Shown in pieces: positions 2,444 through 49,806 of a DNA stretch of 64,000 nt; within the stretch, counting starts at the first letter, position 1, and each line of letters opens with the position of its first letter. This stretch comes from Cryptosporangium arvum DSM 44712 (GTDB lineage Bacteria; Actinomycetota; Actinomycetes; Mycobacteriales; Cryptosporangiaceae): positions 7,036,894 through 7,100,893 of the forward strand of contig NZ_KK073874.1 of assembly GCF_000585375.1 (NCBI RefSeq), written 5' to 3'. The notes beneath the pieces are model-generated. The model was not told the DNA's origin, ran no database searches, and saw nothing but the letters and a program-made list of their open reading frames with translations. The position numbers and the translations under genes were made by a program.

Positions 2444-3331
2444 ATGTCGACGAATGCGATTGAACTGGCCGGGGTGATCAAGACCTTCGGGGCGGTCCGG
2501 GCACTCGACGGACTCGATCTCTCGGTTCGGACGGGTGAGGTCCACGGCTTCCTCGGGCCAAACGGCGCGGGCAAGACCACGACGATCCGGGTCCTGCTCG
2601 GCTTGTTGCGTGCCGATTCGGGCGGGGCCCGGCTGCTCGGCGGCGACCCGTGGCGGGACGCGGTGGCCCTCCACCGGCGCCTGGCCTACGTCCCCGGCGA
2701 CGTCAACCTGTGGCCGACGCTCACCGGCGGCGAGGTGATCGACCTGCTCGGGCGGGTTCGCGGGGGGCTCGACCCCCGGCGACGGAAGGACCTGCTCGAA
2801 CGGTTCGAGCTCGATCCCCGCAAGAAGGCCAAGACCTATTCGAAGGGCAACCGGCAGAAGGTCGCGCTGGTGGCCGCCCTCGCGTCCGACGTCGAACTGC
2901 TGATTCTGGACGAGCCGACCTCCGGTCTCGACCCGCTCATGGAGGCTGCCTTCCAAGAGAGCATCCGCGAGGAGCACCGCACCGTGCTGCTCTCCAGCCA
3001 CATCCTGGCCGAGGCCGAGAAGCTCTGCGACCGGGTGAGCATCATCCGCTCCGGCCGGGTCGTCGAGACCGGCACGCTCACCGAGCTCCGCCACCTCACC
3101 CGCACGTCGATCGACGCCGAGCTCGAGCGGACGCCGGACGCGCTCACCGGCTTGTCGGGCCTGCACGACGTCGAGATCTCGGGCACCCGCTTCGCCTGCC
3201 AGGTCGACCAGGCGTCGCTCGGCCCGCTGCTTGCCCGGCTCGAACGGTTCGGGATCCGGAGCCTCACCAGCCAGCCGCCCACGCTGGAGGAGTTGTTCCT
3301 CCGGCACTACTCCGACACGGTCGCGTCATGA
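2444..3331 (+). CDS. ABC-2 type exporter, ATP-binding subunit
   Basis: A 295-aa DrrA-like ATPase. Walker A is GPNGAGKT at residues 38-45, the signature region is YSKGNRQKV at about 132-140, and Walker B plus D-loop is [12 protein letters not shown] at 152-163. The H-loop is in [11 protein letters not shown]. The Q-loop position reads [10 protein letters not shown] with no glutamine, a variant I associate with tetronasin-type exporters. The C-terminal ~80 residues form the usual DrrA accessory domain. No clear Shine-Dalgarno precedes the ATG, so the message may be leaderless. It overlaps the permease by 4 bp (ATGA) and should power drug or lipid efflux under the divergent regulator. Confidence 0.9.
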
Positions 3332-4995
3332 CTACGGTGCTCAGCGCCGAACCCCGGACCCAGGCGCCCGATGCCGGCGGTGGGTTCACCGGCACGGCGA
3401 GCCTCTTCCGGCTGGCGCTCCGCCGCGACCGGATCCGCGCGACCGCGTGGGTGCTCGGCGTCGCGGTGTTCATCTACAGCCAGGCCGCTCCGCTCAAAGG
3501 CCTCTACCCCACTCAGGCCGATTTGGACGCGCTGGCCCGCGCCTACGGCGGCAGCGTGAACCCCGGGCTGGTCGCGATCACCGGACCTCCGCGTGCGCTG
3601 AACACGTACGGCGGCGCGACGGCCTGGCAGGTGCTGACGTTCGCCGCGGTGCTGCTCGCGCTGATGAGCTATCTGATGGTGCTCCGGCACACCCGCGCCG
3701 AGGAGGAGGCCGGCCGGTCCGACCTGCTCGACGCCGCGCCGGTCGGCCGCTACGCCCGGCTGGCCGCCGCGCTCGTCTACGTCGGGCTGCTCAACGCCCT
3801 GATCCTCGTGCTCGGTGTCGCCGGGCTGTTGACCGTCGGCGACATCCCGTTCAGCGGCTCGCTCGCGCTGGTGGCCGCATGCGTCTCGGTCGGGCTGGTC
3901 TTCGCCGCGGTCGGCGCGATCGCCGCGCAGCTCACCGAGCACTCGCGTTCCGCCGGTGGGATCGCCGGTGCGCTGCTGGGAGCCGCTTTCCTGCTCCGCG
4001 CGGCCGGCGACTCGGCCGCGGTCAACGGATCGTCGGGGCGGTGGCTGTCGTGGTTGTCGCCGATCGGCTGGGCCGAGGAGGTGCGGCCGTACGCCGGAAA
4101 TCGGTGGGCCGTACTGCTCGTCCCGGCGGTGGCCGTCGTCCTGCTGCTCGTCGGTGTCGCGGTACTGCGCGCGCGTCGGGACGCCGGTGCGGGTGTCTTC
4201 CGGACCCGGTTGGGGCCGGAATCCGCACCATCCACGTTGAGCGGTCCGCTGGGTCTCGCCTGGCGACTGCAGCGCGGCAGCATTCTCGGCTGGGCGATCG
4301 GCGCCGGGATCGGCGGCCTGGTGTTCGGGGGTCTCGCGCAGGACATGGTCACCGCGGCGAACGACGATCCGAACACCGCGGAGATGCTGCGTGAGTACAC
4401 CGGGGCGGGTGGCAGCCTGGCCGACGTCTACCTCGGGATGATCTACCTGGTGATGGGCATGGTGGTCGCGGGTTACGCGGTGGCCGCGGCGCTGCGTCTG
4501 CGAGCCGAGGAGGAGTCGCTGCGAGCCGAGCCGGTGCTCGCGACCGCGGTCAGCCGGGTGCGGTGGGCCGGAGCGCACGTGGTGTGGGTGGTGGTCGGAT
4601 CGGCGGTGATCCTGGCGTCGTCCGGGGTGCTGGCGGGGCTCGCCCACGGGTTGCGCACCGGTGCGGTCGGTACCGAGGTGTCCCGGCAGCTCGGCGCGGC
4701 GCTCGCACAGTTGCCGGCGGTGCTGGTGCTGGCCGCGGTCGCGGTGGCGCTGTTCGGGTTGCTGCCGCGGTTCACGCTGCTCAGCTGGGCGGTGCTGCTG
4801 CTGGCGATCGTGATCGGACAGTTCGGGGAGATCCTGCAGCTCCCGACGGCGGTCATGGACCTTTCTCCGTTCACCCACCTGCCCCAACTGCCGGGTGCCG
4901 ACGTCACGCCGGCGCCCTATCTGTGGCTGCTGGCCCTGGCGGCGGTCCTCACCGGGGCCGGGCTGACCGCTTTCCGCCGCCGCGACCTGGGCTGA
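3328..4995 (+). CDS. ABC-2 type exporter, permease subunit (tetronasin-resistance-like)
   Basis: The ATG at 3328 overlaps the stop of the ATPase gene. A longer upstream reading of this frame is a shadow of the ATPase gene. The product has about 555 aa and roughly twelve hydrophobic segments in two similar halves, each beginning with an amphipathic [13 protein letters not shown]-like or [13 protein letters not shown]-like stretch. This two-half fused permease, larger than ordinary ABC-2 permeases, is the TnrB3/EfrB-like arrangement. Together with the ATPase it should form an exporter. The substrate is not evident. The next gene, coaE, is convergent. Confidence 0.85.
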
Positions 4996-19740: not shown

Positions 19741-19850
19741 CAACCGTGTTCCCCGAATTGGCGCAGCGTATTTGTCATGCGGCTCGCAAAAGCGTTCACG
19801 CGGAATTGATGGTGCGCTTAAATGCGACATATTGACCAGCGTAAATGACA

Positions 19851-19897
19851 AAGGTCGGCGTGGCCGTAGTCGATCCGACTCCGGCCACGCCGACCTT
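19851..19897 (-). terminator. Strong hairpin after the DUF2613 gene
   Basis: A perfect 16-bp stem (AAGGTCGGCGTGGCCG with its complement) continues into an inner 5-bp stem (AGTCG/CGACT) across one mismatch. On the minus strand it ends CTTTGTCATTT, giving a weak T-rich tail. It lies 41 bp after the DUF2613 stop. Confidence 0.8.
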
Positions 19898-19938
19898 CGA
19901 CACTGATCGGCCGCCGCCCCGCGAACGGCGGCGGGAAC

Positions 19939-41328: not shown

Positions 41329-43584
41329 TCATGACGTCGGTTTCGTGAGGTCGTAAACGGTCTGGCTGCCGACGGTGGTGGCGGTGTAGTGCTGCTCCAC
41401 CCAGGTGGAGATGGCGCCGGCGGTGCCGCGGTCACCGCCCCGGCCACCGCCCCGGCCACCGCCGCCCATTCCGCCGCCGACGAAGTAGTGGATCCGGCCT
41501 TCGGCGACCCACTGCTGGAACCGGGCGAGCGTGGGGGCGGGGTCGCCGCCGCTGAAGCCGCCGATCGGGATGACCGCGCGGTCGCTCTCCAGCTGGAGGG
41601 CCGAGGCGCTCTGGGAGCCGATCGCGGCCGCGGCCCACTTCGTGGTGGTCTTCTTCAGCAGCGCGACGACTGCGGCGTCGGCCTGCCCGCCGCGCCCGAA
41701 GCCCGGCCCACCGTTCGCACCTGGAGTGCCCGGCGCCGATCCACCCGGCGCGGTTCCACCCGGCGCGGTTCCACCCGGCGCGGTTCCACCCGGCGCGGTT
41801 CCACCCGGCGCCGTACCACCCGGCGCCGTGCCGCCAGGCGGGTTGCCGCCTTGCGCAGTGCCGCCCGGACCGTTGCCGTTCGGGACGTTGCCGTTCGGGA
41901 CGTTGCCGTTCGGGACGTTGCCGTTCGGGACGTTGCCGTTCGGGACGTTGCCGTTCGGGACGTTGCCGCCCGGGAGGTTCGGGGCGCCGGGGAAGTCGCC
42001 GCCGGGGAACTGGCCTCGGCGGGTGCCGGGGCCGCCGAAGCCGCCGGTGCCCGCCGGGCCCGCGGTCGGGGTCGAGCCGGTGTGCGGGGTCGCCGCGGTC
42101 TGCGCGGCGTACGCGGCCGGCCCGGCCAGCACGGCGACGGCCCCGACGGCGGCCCCGACCACCGCGACCCGCCGAGCCGGACGCGCCCCGACGAGCAGCG
42201 CCAGCGCCCCGAGCACCCCGGCGACCAGCACGACCCACCGCAGCCAGGGGTTCCAGTCGGCCGCGCGCCCGAGCAGCTCCCACGCCACCCAGGCCGACAC
42301 CGCGACCAGCCCCGCGAGCCCGACCCGCCCGGCGACGCTCCCCCGCACCCGCCAGAGCTCACGACCACCGATCGCGAGCGTCGCCGCGACCCCGGGCGCG
42401 AGCGCGACGTTGTAGTACGAGTGGAAGATGCCTTCCATGTAGCTGAAGATCCCGGCGGTCACGACCAGCCACCCGCCCCACAGGATCAACCCGGCCCGCA
42501 CCCGGTCGGTACGCGCCGCCCGCCGCGTGAGCCACAGCCCGGCCACCAGCGCCACCACCGCCGCCGGCAGGAACCACGCGATCTGCGTCCCCATCTGCTC
42601 GTTGAGCAGCCGGGTCAGTCCGGTCGTGCCGCCGAAGCCACCGCCGCCGAAGCCACCGCCACCGAAGCCACCGCCGCCGGGCCCCCCGCCCGGGCCGCCT
42701 CCGCCCCCGGAGACGACCCGGTCGAGCCCGTTGTAGCCGAACGCGAGCCCCAGAAACGTGTTGTCCCCCGATCCGCCGAGGTAGGGCCGGCTCTCCGCCG
42801 GCCACAGCATCGTCGCGACGACGTACCACCCCGCCGCGACGACCAGCGCGGCCCCGCCGACGAGCAGCTGCCCCATGCGCCGCCAGAGCCCGGTCGGCGC
42901 GCACACCAGGTACACCAGCGCCAGCGCCGGCAGCACCAGGAACGACTGCAGGGTCTTGGTGAGGAACGCGAACCCCAGCGCGACCCCGGCCAACGCCAGC
43001 CACCACGTGCCGCCCCGCGACGCCGCCGCGTCCACGGCCCGCGTCACGCAGTACGCCGCCGCGAGCATCAGCAGCACGAGCAGGGCGTCCGGATTGTTGA
43101 ACCGGAACATGAGCACGACGACCGGCGTGACCGCGAACGACGCGGCGGCGGCCAGGCCGGCCGCGGGGCCGGACCAGCGGCGGACGGCCGCGTAGAGCAG
43201 CCAGACCGAGGCCACGCCCATCAGCGCCTCGGGCACCAGCATGCTCCAGCTGGAGAAGCCGAAGATCCGCCCGGACAGCGCCATCACCCACATCGCCGCC
43301 GGTGGCTTGTCGACGGTGATGACGTTGCCCCAGTCGGACGAGGCGAAGAAGAACGACGTCCAGCTCTTCGTGCCCGCCTGCACCGCCGCGGCGTAGAAGT
43401 CGTTGGACCAGCCCGACGCCCCGAGGTCCCAGAGGTAGAGCAGGGCCGCCACCGCCAGGATCACCAGCAGCGCGGGACGGACCCAGGCGGGGTCGCGCGG
43501 GCGGGTGGTCGCCGCCGGGGTCGAGCTTCGTTCGTCGGTCGCAGTCTCCAGCACGGAGCCGACGATCGACGACGAACCTGGCAC
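41329..43584 (-). CDS. GT39/ArnT-like membrane glycosyltransferase (YkcB-type) with repeat-encoded linkers
   Basis: 751 aa. The first external loop contains WSNDFYAAAVQAG and later ITVDKPPAAMWV, the pattern of PMT_2/ArnT-type enzymes using polyprenyl-phosphate sugars. About eleven membrane segments reach residue ~500, interrupted near 305-330 by a Gly-rich loop. The exported C-terminal part has six GNVPN and six GGTAP repeats, then a small soluble domain (DAAVVALLKKTTTKWAAAAIGSQSAS...). That domain resembles the C-terminal domain of YkcA/YkcB-type proteins. The GTG start at 43584 lacks a clear ribosome binding site, so the true start may be slightly downstream. Confidence 0.82.
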   Translation of the reverse strand: MPGSSSIVGSVLETATDERSSTPAATTRPRDPAWVRPALLVILAVAALLYLWDLGASGWSNDFYAAAVQAGTKSWTSFFFASSDWGNVITVDKPPAAMWVMALSGRIFGFSSWSMLVPEALMGVASVWLLYAAVRRWSGPAAGLAAAASFAVTPVVVLMFRFNNPDALLVLLMLAAAYCVTRAVDAAASRGGTWWLALAGVALGFAFLTKTLQSFLVLPALALVYLVCAPTGLWRRMGQLLVGGAALVVAAGWYVVATMLWPAESRPYLGGSGDNTFLGLAFGYNGLDRVVSGGGGGPGGGPGGGGFGGGGFGGGGFGGTTGLTRLLNEQMGTQIAWFLPAAVVALVAGLWLTRRAARTDRVRAGLILWGGWLVVTAGIFSYMEGIFHSYYNVALAPGVAATLAIGGRELWRVRGSVAGRVGLAGLVAVSAWVAWELLGRAADWNPWLRWVVLVAGVLGALALLVGARPARRVAVVGAAVGAVAVLAGPAAYAAQTAATPHTGSTPTAGPAGTGGFGGPGTRRGQFPGGDFPGAPNLPGGNVPNGNVPNGNVPNGNVPNGNVPNGNVPNGNGPGGTAQGGNPPGGTAPGGTAPGGTAPGGTAPGGTAPGGTAPGGSAPGTPGANGGPGFGRGGQADAAVVALLKKTTTKWAAAAIGSQSASALQLESDRAVIPIGGFSGGDPAPTLARFQQWVAEGRIHYFVGGGMGGGGRGGGRGGDRGTAGAISTWVEQHYTATTVGSQTVYDLTKPTS
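41741..41830. repeat. 15-bp tandem repeat inside the GT39-like gene (GGTAP-coding)
   Basis: Six units of CCACCCGGCGCGGTT, four identical and two with variant ends, with a more divergent unit following. The reverse strand encodes six GGTAP pentapeptides. Length variation between strains would be in-frame. Confidence 0.92.
41871..41975. repeat. 15-bp tandem repeat inside the GT39-like gene (GNVPN-coding)
   Basis: Six identical units of CGTTGCCGTTCGGGA and a seventh degenerate copy. The reverse strand encodes six GNVPN pentapeptides. Near-perfect identity at the DNA level implies recent expansion or homogenisation. Confidence 0.95.
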
Positions 43585-44198: not shown

Positions 44199-44651
44199 AT
44201 GCGATGGTCGGAGATCGGCGGGGAGCGGTGCTCGATTGCCCGGACGCTGTCGGTGGTCGGTGAGCGCTGGACGATGCTCGTGTTGCGGGAGTCGTTCCGC
44301 GGTGTGCGGCGGTTCGAGGACTTCCAGCAGCGCACCGGGGCGTCGCGGCCGGTGCTGGCCGAGCGGCTTCGGCAGCTCACCGCCGACGACGTGCTGCGGC
44401 GCGAGCGGTACGCCGAGAAACCCGACCGGTACGAGTACCGGCTCACCGCGAAGGGGCTGGAGCTGTATCCGGTGATCGTGTCGCTGATGAGTTGGGGCGA
44501 TCGGTGGATGGACGACGGCAGCGGGCCGCCGGTGCGGCTCACCCACGTGCACTGCGAAGGGCCGCTCGCCCCCACCCTCGCGTGCGGTACCTGCGGTGAC
44601 CCGGTCACCGCCCGCGACGTCCGCGCGACCCCCTCCGCACCCGCCACCTGA
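44199..44651 (+). CDS. HxlR-family transcriptional regulator
   Basis: 150 aa. The winged-helix domain starts CSIARTLSVVGERWTMLVLRESFRGVRRFEDFQ, with Cys 11 in the position that senses thiol or electrophile stress in many HxlR proteins. RYEYRLTAKGLELYPVI closes the domain. A C-terminal CGTCGD motif may bind metal. TAGGAT lies six bases before the ATG, suggesting a leaderless transcript. It is divergent from the thioesterase gene, and the gap contains GTTC-N7-GAAC, a possible operator. It likely represses itself and the thioesterase. Confidence 0.87.
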   Translation: MRWSEIGGERCSIARTLSVVGERWTMLVLRESFRGVRRFEDFQQRTGASRPVLAERLRQLTADDVLRRERYAEKPDRYEYRLTAKGLELYPVIVSLMSWGDRWMDDGSGPPVRLTHVHCEGPLAPTLACGTCGDPVTARDVRATPSAPAT

Positions 44652-44683
44652 CCCGACCGCCTCGCGCGGCCCGCCCAGAGCGG

Positions 44684-44852
44684 CCCGCACGAACCGGCCC
44701 GCACGAGGCGGTCCCGCACGAACCCGGCCCCGCACGAACCCGGCCCCGCACGAACCCAGCCCCGCACGAACCCGGCCCCGCACGAACCCGGCCCCGCACA
44801 AACCAGCCCCGCACAAACCGGCCCCGCACGAACCAGCCCCGCACGAACCGGC
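44684..44852. repeat. Intergenic minisatellite, 11 units of 14-16 bp
   Basis: Consensus CCCGCACGAACCCGGC. Units 3-7 (44713-44792) are 16 bp and nearly identical; units 8-11 are 15 bp with GAACC or AAACC. It fills most of the gap between the HxlR gene and the acyltransferase gene. Both strands stay open through it, which makes spurious long frames. Confidence 0.92.
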
Positions 44853-44886
44853 CGAGGCTGCGAAGCGGGCGGGGCCGCGGGAGCGG

Positions 44887-46065
44887 TCAGAGCACGTGGA
44901 TCGCGTAGGCGCCGAAGCCGGCCGAGAGCGCCACCGCCACCGGCCCGATCCGGCGCAGGACACCCGTCCACTCGGCCTCGAAACGGCGGGTGGCCCACAC
45001 CAGCCCGGCCAGCACCACGCAGTGCACCGGGAGCCACAGCAGGCGCCAGCCCGCCCAGCCGAGACCGTCCGGCAGCTCGTGGAGCCCGGGCAGATCGGCC
45101 GTGACCAGCGTCAACACGACGAGCGCGAGCTGGTGCCAGCAGAACACGGTGAGCGCGACCAGGTTCAGCATCGCCACCGCCGCCCATCGCCGCGGTGACC
45201 GCAGGAACGCCGCCAGCCGGTCGCGCAGCAGTACGGCCAGCCCGCACTGCGCCATCGCCAGCGCCACGACCAGCAGGGACGGCGGGTGCGAGTTCACCCG
45301 TCCGGCGCCGGGAACGCCGACCACGCTCGCCGGGTAACCGAACCACAGCACCAGCGCCACCAGCAGGACCACGCCGACGCCCGCGAGCGCCGCCGACGCC
45401 CGCCGCGACAGCCGCCCCCGGGCCCAGGCGACGCCGAGCACGTACGCGAACGCCCAGCCCGGCAGCACGTTGAGCAACCCGATCCAGCCCGGGACGCCGT
45501 CCACCCCGTAGCGCAGGGCGTCGACGACCGCGACGGTCACCACCAGCGGCAACGCGGCCCAGGCCCCCATCCGGCGCACCGCCGCGACCACCAGCGGCGT
45601 CAGCGCGGTCACCACCCCGTACACCGCGATGAACCACAGCGGCTGGATGACGAGCGCGGTCGTGGTGCGCAGCGTCCCGGCCGGCACCCCGGCCAGCGCC
45701 AGTAGCGGGAACGCGCAGGCCAGCACCGCGGTCACCGCGATCACCGGCCGGGTCAGCCGGACCAGCCGGCGGCGGATCCAGGGGCCGTACGCGCGGCCCT
45801 CCAGGCCCCGCGCCGCCGAGTACCCACCGACCAGGAAGAACAGCGCCAGCAGCTGGAGCACCCAGCTCAGCGGCGCGAAGTCCGGCAGCGCGGTGAGCGG
45901 GCTGCGTACCCGCAGCGCTCCCGAGGCGTCCGGCACCAGCGCCATGACCAGGAAGTGACCGACGACGACGCCGACCACGGCCAGAGCACGCAGACCGTCG
46001 AGCGCCCGGTCCCGGTTCGCCGGAGTAGCGGCTTCGATGCGCGTCACGAACGAGTTCTGAGTCAT
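44887..46065 (-). CDS. Acyltransferase-3 family membrane protein
   Basis: 392 aa with about ten membrane segments. The N-terminus RDRALDGLRALAVVGVVVGHFLVM has the conserved histidine of the family. A later stretch, YGPWIRRRLVRLTRPV, corresponds to the RRxxRI/L-P motif. ATG 46065 overlaps the upstream hydrolase stop by 4 bp, and GGAGGT lies ten bases before it. Longer readings of this frame enter the hydrolase gene. It probably adds acyl groups to a cell-surface sugar. It ends 34 bp before a minisatellite. Confidence 0.87.
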   Translation of the reverse strand: MTQNSFVTRIEAATPANRDRALDGLRALAVVGVVVGHFLVMALVPDASGALRVRSPLTALPDFAPLSWVLQLLALFFLVGGYSAARGLEGRAYGPWIRRRLVRLTRPVIAVTAVLACAFPLLALAGVPAGTLRTTTALVIQPLWFIAVYGVVTALTPLVVAAVRRMGAWAALPLVVTVAVVDALRYGVDGVPGWIGLLNVLPGWAFAYVLGVAWARGRLSRRASAALAGVGVVLLVALVLWFGYPASVVGVPGAGRVNSHPPSLLVVALAMAQCGLAVLLRDRLAAFLRSPRRWAAVAMLNLVALTVFCWHQLALVVLTLVTADLPGLHELPDGLGWAGWRLLWLPVHCVVLAGLVWATRRFEAEWTGVLRRIGPVAVALSAGFGAYAIHVL

Positions 46066-47268: not shown

Positions 47269-47925
47269 CTACCCCACCAGCCCGCGCTGGTAGGCGAATA
47301 CGACCGCCTGCGTGCGGTCGCGGAGGTTGAGCTTGGTCAGGATGTGTCCGACGTGCGTCTTGATCGTCTGCTCGGCGAGGAAGAGCTCGGCGGCGATCTC
47401 GGCGTTGGAGAGCCCGCGGGCGATCAACCCGAGCACCTCGCGCTCGCGCGGCGTCAGCTCGGTGACGGCCCCACCAGGCAGATCACGCTTCCGGCGGCGG
47501 GCGAAGTCACCGATAAGGCGCCGCGTGACCGACGGGGCGAGCAGTGCGTCACCCCGCGCGACGACACGCACCGCGTTGAGCAGGTCCGCGCCCGGCGCGT
47601 CCTTGAGCAGGAAGCCGCTCGCTCCGGCGGAGAGCGCGTCGTACACGTACTCGTCGAGGTCGAACGTCGTCAGCACGAGGATCTTCGGGGCGTCGTCCTC
47701 CGGCGTCTCCCCCAGGATCTCGGCGGTCGCGGCGATGCCGTCGAGCACCGGCATCCGCACGTCCATCACGATGACGTCGGGCGTGAGGCTGCGCGCCAGC
47801 TCCACCGCCTCGCGGCCGTTGCCGGCCTGTCCCACCACCTCGACGTCGCCCGCGGCGGTCAGCAGCGTCGCCAGACCGTCCCGAATCATCACCTGGTCGT
47901 CGGCGACCACCACCCGGATCGTCAT
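47269..47925 (-). CDS. NarL/LuxR-type response regulator
   Basis: 218 aa. The receiver has D9-D10, phospho-acceptor D55 in VIVMDVRMP, T in LVLTTFD and K in LLKDAPG. The C-terminal LuxR helix-turn-helix reads LTPREREVLGLIARGLSNAEIAAELFLAEQTIKTHVGHILTKL. The cognate kinase is almost certainly the gene ending at 48424 on the same strand. About 500 bp, including an opposite-strand small gene, separate the two, so they are not a simple tight operon. The target genes are not evident. Confidence 0.93.
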   Translation of the reverse strand: MTIRVVVADDQVMIRDGLATLLTAAGDVEVVGQAGNGREAVELARSLTPDVIVMDVRMPVLDGIAATAEILGETPEDDAPKILVLTTFDLDEYVYDALSAGASGFLLKDAPGADLLNAVRVVARGDALLAPSVTRRLIGDFARRRKRDLPGGAVTELTPREREVLGLIARGLSNAEIAAELFLAEQTIKTHVGHILTKLNLRDRTQAVVFAYQRGLVG

Positions 47926-48081
47926 GGACGCACCTTATTGGGTTGCCACCCGGCCGTAGATTGGAGGACGTGCTGACCGAAGGAGAGAGGGCCCGACGGC
48001 CCCGCGGCGGGCTGTTGCCCTGCGGGGTTCGCTAGCCCTTCCAGGCGAGCCCCGGCCCATCTCCTCGCTTGGAGCACCCCC

Positions 48082-48414
48082 ATGCCACGGCTTTCCCGTA
48101 ACCGTGTCTTCTACCGACGGCTCTGGTTGAACCGTCCGGGCTTCCACAGCACGGCGTACGTGCTGTCGGAGATCAAACTGCAGCCGGACGACCAGGGTCT
48201 CGACCTTCTCGCTCAGTTCCAGCTCGCGGATTGTTCCCGTTCGGCGCGACTCGACTTCGACGTCTACTCGAACACCCCCGAGCCCGATCGCAAGAACATG
48301 CTGCGCAAGGCCCGTCTTCTGCGTCAGTCGGTGAACGATTTCTGCGACGCGCTCGAAGCCGCCGCCGCCGAACAGAAGAAGGCCACGAAGAAGCGCCCGC
48401 GCAAGTCCGCCTGA
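48082..48414 (+). CDS. Small hypothetical protein inside a two-component locus
   Basis: 110 aa from ATG 48082 with GGAG eight bases upstream. The sequence (LSRNRVFYRRLWLNRPGFHSTAYVLSEIKLQP...) is soluble and mixed in charge. It has a likely helical region (KNMLRKARLLRQSVNDFCDALEAAAAEQ) and ends in a lysine-rich tail. I recognise no domain. It lies on the opposite strand between a kinase and its response regulator and stops 9 bp from the kinase stop. Balanced composition and a good ribosome binding site support a real gene. The 155 bp before it carry GC-rich hairpins. Confidence 0.72.
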   Translation: MPRLSRNRVFYRRLWLNRPGFHSTAYVLSEIKLQPDDQGLDLLAQFQLADCSRSARLDFDVYSNTPEPDRKNMLRKARLLRQSVNDFCDALEAAAAEQKKATKKRPRKSA

Positions 48415-48423
48415 TCCGTTCGG

Positions 48424-49806
48424 TCAGGCCGGAATGCCCGCGCCCGGAAGCCCCGCTCCCGGGCGCGGGGATTCCGCGGTCGGCAGTACCGCGGTCACCG
48501 CCCAGCCCCCACCCGGGCGAGGCCCGGCGGACATTTCCCCGCCGAGCATCGCCGTGCGCTCCCGGATCCCCACCAGCCCGTGCCCGCCCCCGAGCGACGC
48601 CCGCTCCGCGGCTTCGGCCGCCGCCGCGCCCCGGCGTGCTCCGAGCTCGCGGGACCCGTCGGACGGTGCGGGGACGCCACCCGCTCCTACGGCGGCGCGC
48701 TGATCGACGTCGGCGGCGGAGTTGGTGACCGACAGGTGCAGGGCCTCGGGCCCGTACCGGACCTCGACCCCCACCTCGCTGCCGGGCGCGTAGCGCGTGG
48801 CGTTGCTGAGCGCCTCCTGCAGGATGCGGTAGGCGGAGACGTCGACGGCCGCGGACAGCGGGCGGGGCACGCCGACGACCGCGGGCTTCACCCGGAGACC
48901 GCCGGACCGGGCGTGCTCCACCAGGTCCTCGAGGAGCTCCAGGCCGGGCGCAGGAGCCCGCTCGGCGGCCTCCTCCTCCGACCGCAGCAGGCCCACGACC
49001 GTGCGGGTCTCGGTGAGCGCCTCCCGCGCGGCCTTGTTGAGCTGGGCGAAGATCTCGGCCGCCGCGGGCGGGAGGTCGGGCACCTTCAGCGGCGCCGCCT
49101 CGGACTGGATCGCGATCATCGTCATGTGGTGCGCGACCACGTCGTGCAGTTCGCGGGCGATCCGGCCGCGTTCCTCGAGCACCGCCTGGCGGGCCAGGTC
49201 CCGTTTGCGGAGGGCACGCTGCTCGTCGAGGCGGGCCTGGATGCTGCGGCGGCTGCCGACCGCGTCGCCGAACAGCAGCCCGGCGAACGCGGCCGCCGCG
49301 AGGATGTCACCGATCCAGAACGGCATGCCGGCCATCGCCCCGAACCCGAACACCGCGACCGAGCTCAGGACGCCGACCCCGAACCAGATCCGGCGCGGAT
49401 GGGACGCCCCGATCAGAACGAGCGTCAGCAGCATCGCGACGCACGCGGTGACCGGCCACGGCCACACCACGCCCTCGCGCGGGCCGAACGTGACCGCGAG
49501 CGGCGTAACGAGGAAGAAGACGATCATGACGCGCCAGGCCAGCAGCGGCCGGGCCGGCGCGACGACGAGCGGCAACGCCAGGCCGAGCCCCAGGAAGGCG
49601 GCCAGCACGCTCGGCACCCGCAGCGTCAGCACCAGTTCGGCGATCGTGCCGCCGGTGAGACCGCCGCCGACGAGCACCGAGGCCACCCCGAGCACCCACC
49701 GCCGCCACCCGCGCCGGGGCAGCCACGGACGCCCCTGCTCGGGCTTGATCGGCGCGCGGACGGCCGCGTCCCACAGTCCGAGGAAGTAGGACGCGACCGT
49801 TCTCAT
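48424..49806 (-). CDS. NarL-type sensor histidine kinase
   Basis: About 460 aa from ATG 49806. Five or six membrane segments fill the N-terminal ~190 residues without a large external loop, so the signal is likely sensed in the membrane. The HisKA_3 dimerisation motif RGRIARELHDVVAHHMTM carries the phosphorylated His. The ATPase domain has the N-box LSNATRYAPGS and the G-box GGGHGLVGIRERTAMLGG. A 35-40 residue Ala/Gly/Arg-rich insertion sits between SVTNSA and the G-box, enlarging the ATP lid. It partners with the response regulator at 47269. Confidence 0.92.
   Translation of the reverse strand: MRTVASYFLGLWDAAVRAPIKPEQGRPWLPRRGWRRWVLGVASVLVGGGLTGGTIAELVLTLRVPSVLAAFLGLGLALPLVVAPARPLLAWRVMIVFFLVTPLAVTFGPREGVVWPWPVTACVAMLLTLVLIGASHPRRIWFGVGVLSSVAVFGFGAMAGMPFWIGDILAAAAFAGLLFGDAVGSRRSIQARLDEQRALRKRDLARQAVLEERGRIARELHDVVAHHMTMIAIQSEAAPLKVPDLPPAAAEIFAQLNKAAREALTETRTVVGLLRSEEEAAERAPAPGLELLEDLVEHARSGGLRVKPAVVGVPRPLSAAVDVSAYRILQEALSNATRYAPGSEVGVEVRYGPEALHLSVTNSAADVDQRAAVGAGGVPAPSDGSRELGARRGAAAAEAAERASLGGGHGLVGIRERTAMLGGEMSAGPRPGGGWAVTAVLPTAESPRPGAGLPGAGIPA

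Follow-up and report, generated by a model that had tools for sequence, protein, structure and literature searches.

The locus and its small gene

The locus consists of a NarL-type sensor histidine kinase gene, the gene of a NarL/FixJ-type response regulator and, between the two on the opposite strand, a small gene, here called ORF110, that encodes a protein of 110 amino acids from an ATG start (Table 1). It lies in a stretch of 64,000 nucleotides that was analysed as a whole and is referred to as the window. The domain scores of the kinase were 8.8e-20 for HisKA_3 and 3e-8 for HATPase_c, and those of the regulator 6.8e-23 for Response_reg and 1.1e-21 for GerE. ORF110 and the kinase gene are convergent, with nine bases (48415-48423) between their stops. 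The original prediction had placed a basic-tailed frame of this length on the other strand between kinase and regulator, 9 bp from the kinase stop, and these coordinates hold.

Table 1. Features of the locus, with positions counted from the first base of the window.
Feature	Position	Strand	Basis
NarL/FixJ-type response regulator (Response_reg + GerE)	47269-47925	-	domain scan
Divergent intergenic stretch of 156 bases, regulator start to ORF110 start	47926-48081		sequence; a promoter role is suggested by position
GGAG, likely ribosome-binding site	48071-48074	+	7 bases 5' of the ORF110 ATG; read from sequence
ORF110, small gene of a rare phage-type family	48082-48414	+	ORF call, G002 orthologue, dN/dS, family profiles
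Sensor histidine kinase, NarL-type (HisKA_3 + HATPase_c)	48424-49806	-	domain scan; orthologues 77 % (G002), 76 % (G003)
Inverted repeat of 22 nt, 91 % complementary, 3-nt loop; candidate U-less terminator of the convergent genes	48430-48476		repeat search and folding

Judged from its sequence, ORF110 is a real gene rather than a chance frame, because GGAG precedes its ATG and a copy with 58 % identity occurs in unchanged place and orientation in a second genome of the genus (G002), with a dN of 0.35 and a dS of 0.89. The resulting dN/dS of about 0.39 was calculated over 104 aligned codons by Nei-Gojobori with Jukes-Cantor, and is the value of a single pair with no formal test. The G002 protein apparently begins further upstream, at an ATG with its own GGAG. 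In the 9.2 Mb single-contig genome of the window (G000), ORF110 is present as a single copy.

A spurious frame or a decayed remnant would fit two properties of ORF110. Its third-position GC is below that of most window genes (0.81 against a median of 0.93, the third lowest among 43 gene-like ORFs picked by a script), and no close homologue was found outside the genus. However, the constrained orthologue, the GGAG before the start in both genomes and the homologues in three further genomes (G248, G627 and G682) speak against this explanation, which is in the main refuted and is considered extremely improbable. The low third-position GC also fits a foreign origin, though the value of the G002 copy (0.93) is not unusual. 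The lowest value of the gene-like ORFs (0.749) belongs to a 526-codon ORF at window 3307-4887 on the minus strand, which has no Pfam match at an E-value up to 0.01. Elsewhere in the window, short tandem repeats similar to APHEPAPHKP appear in the translation of a plus-strand frame at 44596-45198, and NVPNG and GGTAP repeats lie inside a large membrane-protein-like ORF at 41329-43584 on the minus strand.

No Pfam or NCBIfam model matched the ORF110 protein above its cut-off, and four of its relatives had no match to these models at an E-value up to 1. A Pfam CEP170_C match in the charged tail (E 0.0086, below cut-off) was discounted as arising by chance from the charged sequence. The protein carries a core pattern of [F/W]L[N] ... 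DC ... D[F] ... K, followed by a basic C-terminal tail (KKATKKRPRKSA).

Relatives in bacteria and phages

Homologues of the 110-residue protein were found in G002, in three more distant bacteria and among phage proteins. A profile built from the two members of the genus detected a member in G248, a genome of the same class, with an E-value of 7e-21; the identity is 42 % over 83 amino acids (BLASTP E 9e-20, single comparison). Including this sequence extended the profile to G682 (E 9.1e-14) and G627 (E 6.9e-13), which belong to the same phylum but not to the same class. The family, of around 100 residues, is rare, with members in 5 of about 1,126 genomes searched with profiles of unequal sensitivity. 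At an E-value up to 0.001 and with the genome of the window included, members were counted in 2 of 150 relatives by a single-protein search, and in 2/397 genomes of the order, 2/394 of the class and 3/396 of the phylum; the same threshold gave 1/17 in the family of G248 and 1/21 in the family of G627. Since the larger profile searches scored only 11-12 candidates per genome, distant members may have been missed. The class search with the first profile had returned 4/394 at an E-value up to 0.01, of which two were dropped as false. These two were the match in G374 (E 0.008, 18.3 bits), which sits inside a 449-residue open frame, and the match in G447 (E 0.003), which contains four internal stops and was not recovered by a better profile.

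In the 11.5-12 kb read around each of the three distant bacterial members, no conserved linkage to a kinase or a regulator was seen outside the genus, and their neighbours are unrelated. In G248, a DUF2254 membrane protein is found beside the member together with an FAD oxidoreductase. The G627 member has a phosphodiesterase and an alpha/beta hydrolase as neighbours; a DDE transposase gene and a GAF-ANTAR gene also lie within about 4 kb of it. Next to the G682 member are small ORFs without known function, and further out there are genes for an FAD-binding protein, for regulators of the TetR type and for a family 15 glycosidase. The window kinase and regulator had no tblastn match (E 1e-5) in the 12.0, 11.5 and 11.8 kb around the G248, G627 and G682 members, respectively, and no two-component domain was detected in 21 neighbouring ORFs scanned with Pfam. 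The DDE transposase gene near the G627 member (L028 1306-3084, minus strand) is about 2.4 kb away from it.

Searches with single sequences gave few phage matches. By tblastn, the ORF110 protein matched none of the phages at an E-value up to 0.01 and none of the plasmids, the G627 protein none of the plasmids, and the G248 protein a single phage record with an E-value of 6. Scans of viral contigs with bacterial queries and pattern scans of bacterial genome contigs found no relative. As the direct scans of the ORF110 protein were empty, the phage link is drawn through intermediates and profiles. Against 50,697 phage records, the G627 protein matched nine, all from Vibrio phages (best E 1e-4, covering 41 % of the query), and the G682 protein matched four Vibrio phages (E 2e-3 to 8e-3). 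Searches starting from phage members reached 315, 315 and 78 records in overlapping lists, with 57 of the 78 from Pseudomonas. Among the matches listed, most members are called hypothetical, and the records measure 47 to 140 kb. The annotation of the stretches examined shows no sensor kinase next to the phage members.

A profile-profile comparison of the window clade (three sequences) with eight phage proteins resulted in a probability of 96.9 and an E-value of 1.7e-10 over 82 columns. Its score of 57.9 contrasts with a mean of 10.6 and a maximum of 18.8 for 200 column-shuffled phage alignments. The window-clade profile also matched the G627/G682 profile (E 9.4e-17), and the L of FLN/WLN, the D-C and one K of the long helix are invariant across all 11 aligned members. 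By these profile comparisons, ORF110 belongs to a wider phage-type family that includes the window clade, the members in G248, G627 and G682 and the phage proteins.

One phage family of the PHROG collection, phrog_12065 (111 positions, function not assigned), weakly matches the G682 (E 0.0013) and G627 (E 0.015) proteins. It also matches, at an E-value up to 0.1 (best 1e-9), five of the eight sequences in an alignment that mixes bacterial and phage proteins, and members of this alignment have the L, D-C and K core in common with the ORF110 protein. In contrast to phrog_12065, ORF110 is a gene of a bacterial chromosome and its product has a basic tail; the ORF110 protein itself matched 0 PHROG families, phrog_12065 included, at an E-value up to 1. 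Outside the phylum, the phrog_12065 model matched one of 14 control genomes, that of Bacteroides ihuae. A literature search on phrog_12065 found no paper.

The protein HUN41_00181 (121 amino acids) of Streptomyces phage Coruscant, which is described as a 134-kb phage predicted to be virulent (PMC7650747), was the top profile match among 851 ORFs from three stretches of the phage record, with an E-value of 2.7e-6 compared to 0.02 for the next. It aligns with ORF110 over FLN, DC, EFD and K at 22 % identity. Its label 'DUF4047' is not borne out, since there is no Pfam match at an E-value up to 0.01. HUN41_00181 sits within a tRNA array of a phage genome, whereas ORF110 is chromosomal. Overall, tRNA genes occur within the examined stretch in 6 of 12 phage loci (L030, L031, L032, L037, L038 and L058, not L033-L036, L041 and L042); L030 and L031 encode near-identical family proteins. 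The tRNA linkage was not taken as an indication of function. Family members lie among tRNA genes at L038 1420-1794, L032 1971-2270 and L058 44066-44431, which are two Vibrio phages and one Streptomyces phage. An Rfam search over the window at gathering scores reported tRNA only.

Modelling of ORF110 together with four IMG/VR phage proteins predicted strands at residues 14-26, 29-40 and 44-51 and a helix at 57-90. The predicted fold is thus a beta-meander followed by a long C-terminal helix, with a pLDDT of 72.4 that corresponds to middling confidence; the single-sequence model (pLDDT 58.7) has a different fold. The first match among viral models was a 121-residue Coruscant protein (prob 1.00, E 4.5e-3), with no match at an E-value of 0.001; judging by phage and length, this is presumably HUN41_00181. 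Among solved structures, the search by sequence gave one match (E 0.15) and the search by fold no confident one, with a COMM domain as the best Foldseek match (E 0.15). VIA-align against solved folds reached a Z of 5.5 at most, with leviviral coat proteins first and a PUR-alpha repeat at Z 4.0. A PC4-like or similar nucleic-acid-binding fold was considered and is not established.

One explanation for these relationships is that a phage protein was domesticated and now serves the host in defence against phages or in tuning nucleic-acid metabolism, its position between kinase and regulator being pure chance. The phage kin, the location of some phage members within tRNA arrays and the basic tail are consistent with such a use. 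On the other hand, no tRNA was found in the stretches around the bacterial members, the nearest one in the window being 8.6 kb off, and no defence model gave a credible match among 11 family members. The best PADLOC hit, DruE, came from two of these members (best E 0.0013) and not from ORF110; it was rejected, because the model describes an SNF2 family domain and the members have 100 residues. We consider this explanation unlikely. Going by the matches obtained, a phage is the likely donor of ORF110, although other bacterial phyla were covered by pattern scans only.

Origin of the interrupted pair

The spacing of other pairs indicates how unusual the arrangement is. In nine other kinase-regulator pairs, one from each of G000-G008 with a kinase identity of 31-42 %, the gaps are -29, -7, -7, -4, 4, -4, -2, 1 and 2 bases, the first codon of the regulator being extrapolated from the alignment. 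These pairs are a small part of the hundreds of kinase matches in the nine genomes (76 in G000 alone). The statement of the original prediction that such partners are normally adjacent thus agrees with all nine pairs measured (-29 to +4 bases). The window resembles NarL/FixJ-type pairs with HisKA_3 kinases in having both partners with their domains; it differs in that the partners are non-adjacent with an opposite-strand gene between them, whereas the nine measured pairs leave no room for one. As read from these spacings, the ancestral arrangement of kinase and regulator is an adjacent one.

A profile search at an E-value up to 0.1 found ORF110 in two of the four genomes of the genus, G000 and G002. 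Kinase stop and regulator start are separated by 498 bases in the window and by 711 bases in G002, where the small gene lies on the opposite strand between the kinase (77 %) and regulator (94 %) orthologues, and where the gltD and alpha/beta-hydrolase genes of the window locus are likewise found alongside. In contrast, the distance, again with an extrapolated first codon of the regulator, is 86 bases at the orthologous locus of G003, which keeps the kinase (76 %) and regulator (95 %), and no trace of the small gene was found there by profile or tblastn. The interruption is therefore carried by one close relative and not by the other. The fourth genome, G001, is uninformative because it is without a clear orthologous locus: its best kinase match has 38 % identity over residues 27-370, and gltB was not found. 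The 86-base gap of G003 (L016 5021-5108) is present although the gene is absent, while the nine other pairs overlap or touch, and may be the scar of a loss.

The gltB tree pairs G002 with G003 as sisters and places G000 outside; at 92/93, the support for the G002-G003 fork falls slightly short of the 95/80 threshold at which a fork is firm. The kinase identities (87.8 % for G002-G003, 77 % for G000-G002 and 76 % for G000-G003) and the gltD identities agree with this tree, and the regulator is too conserved to separate the three genomes. Since G002 and G003 look like sisters, the gene was probably gained before the three species split and lost in G003. One gain and one loss is, on this phylogeny, the simplest account, and two independent gains in the same gap are unlikely. 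No direct repeat flanks ORF110 in the window; the G002 gene is roughly flanked by a pair of 15-base GC-rich repeats (93 %), which may be a chance occurrence.

Of the recent insertion suggested by the original prediction, the insertion is supported by the adjacency in the other measured pairs, the sporadic family and the phage relatives, but it is not recent if, as is probable, it predates the split of the three species. The prediction had also suggested a modulator or target of the sensor system, and a dedicated modulator of the pair might have been recruited within the genus, for example by binding the kinase or the regulator. The gene has indeed been kept in place under constraint in G000 and G002. 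However, G003 lacks the gene and yet retains both partners, within the stretches examined the three distant members lie beside no such pair or two-component domains and no sensor kinase is annotated by the phage members, and ORF110 is on the opposite strand and hence is not co-transcribed with the pair. These observations do not support a role as modulator or target, although one confined to this genus is conceivable, and dedicated modulation is considered quite unlikely. Nothing beyond position ties the ORF110 product to the sensor pair.

Transcript ends and the proposed split of the operon

The inverted repeat at the convergent junction begins 16 bases past the ORF110 stop and overlaps the kinase gene at its 3' end. 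On both strands, the surrounding 76 bases gave a better fold than each of 200 shuffles (z -3.75 and -3.59), for stretches that were picked after the inverted repeat was seen. Ranked on folding energy itself, the hairpin is equalled or surpassed in stability by 6 of 1,683 windows of this length. The 64 kb contain three hairpins, this one included, with arms of at least 18, no more than two mismatches and a loop of 3-8, compared to 0 in five mononucleotide shuffles. A hairpin of other sequence is found at the same junction in G002 (z -3.17), and no hairpin in the kinase-regulator gap of G003 (z +0.48).

Termination at hairpins of this kind has been discussed for mycobacteria. According to one review, mycobacterial genes rely mostly on hairpins that lack a U-run and lie within 50 bp of the stop codon, and intrinsic ends are outweighed by Rho-dependent ones; it also cites work requiring a U-run, and U-less hairpin termination in actinobacteria is disputed (PMC12288462). 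Shared hairpins may well terminate the transcripts of the kinase and of ORF110, and a kinase transcript that ends there does not reach the regulator.

These observations fit best with ORF110 being an old captured member of a small-protein family otherwise found mainly in large phages, which would have entered between formerly adjacent kinase and regulator genes before the three species split and would later have been lost from one of them. The protein itself would work alone, with nucleic acid or another protein as its most likely binding partner. The kinase gene and ORF110 would converge on the strong hairpin, which probably ends both transcripts, and the regulator would then depend on its own promoter in the divergent stretch of 156 bases, which would also have to accommodate the ORF110 promoter. 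Kinase and regulator would no longer form one operon. We regard such a captured phage-type accessory gene, independent of the kinase and acting on the pair in cis by splitting its operon, as the probable explanation, though with considerable reserve. No sigma-70-like promoter was found in 47926-48081, which means little in this group.

A further alternative is a circuit rewired by a phage accessory gene that arrived antisense within the operon, in which ORF110 and the kinase, being transcribed towards each other, are expressed in a mutually exclusive manner and the regulator, sitting on the shared divergent promoter, drives or represses the phage-derived protein as an output. If true, the capture would have divided a formerly coupled kinase-regulator operon, leaving a split circuit whose output is a viral protein. 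We consider this arrangement very unlikely. Under the preferred explanation of a captured accessory gene, an unnamed bacterial small protein is joined to a phage family without assigned function and may provide a chromosomal test case under constraint. In addition, three close genomes show the sensor operon with and without splitting by an apparently foreign gene.

The leader between the regulator and ORF110 (47976-48067) can form a long branched hairpin of -53 kcal/mol. A strong 5' leader fold (47955-48100) was rejected as not significant, since 11 of 200 shuffles were as good (z -1.97), and the region aligns poorly with G002. The longest hairpin in the window, with 24 base pairs and a 3-base loop, is located at 19849-19899.
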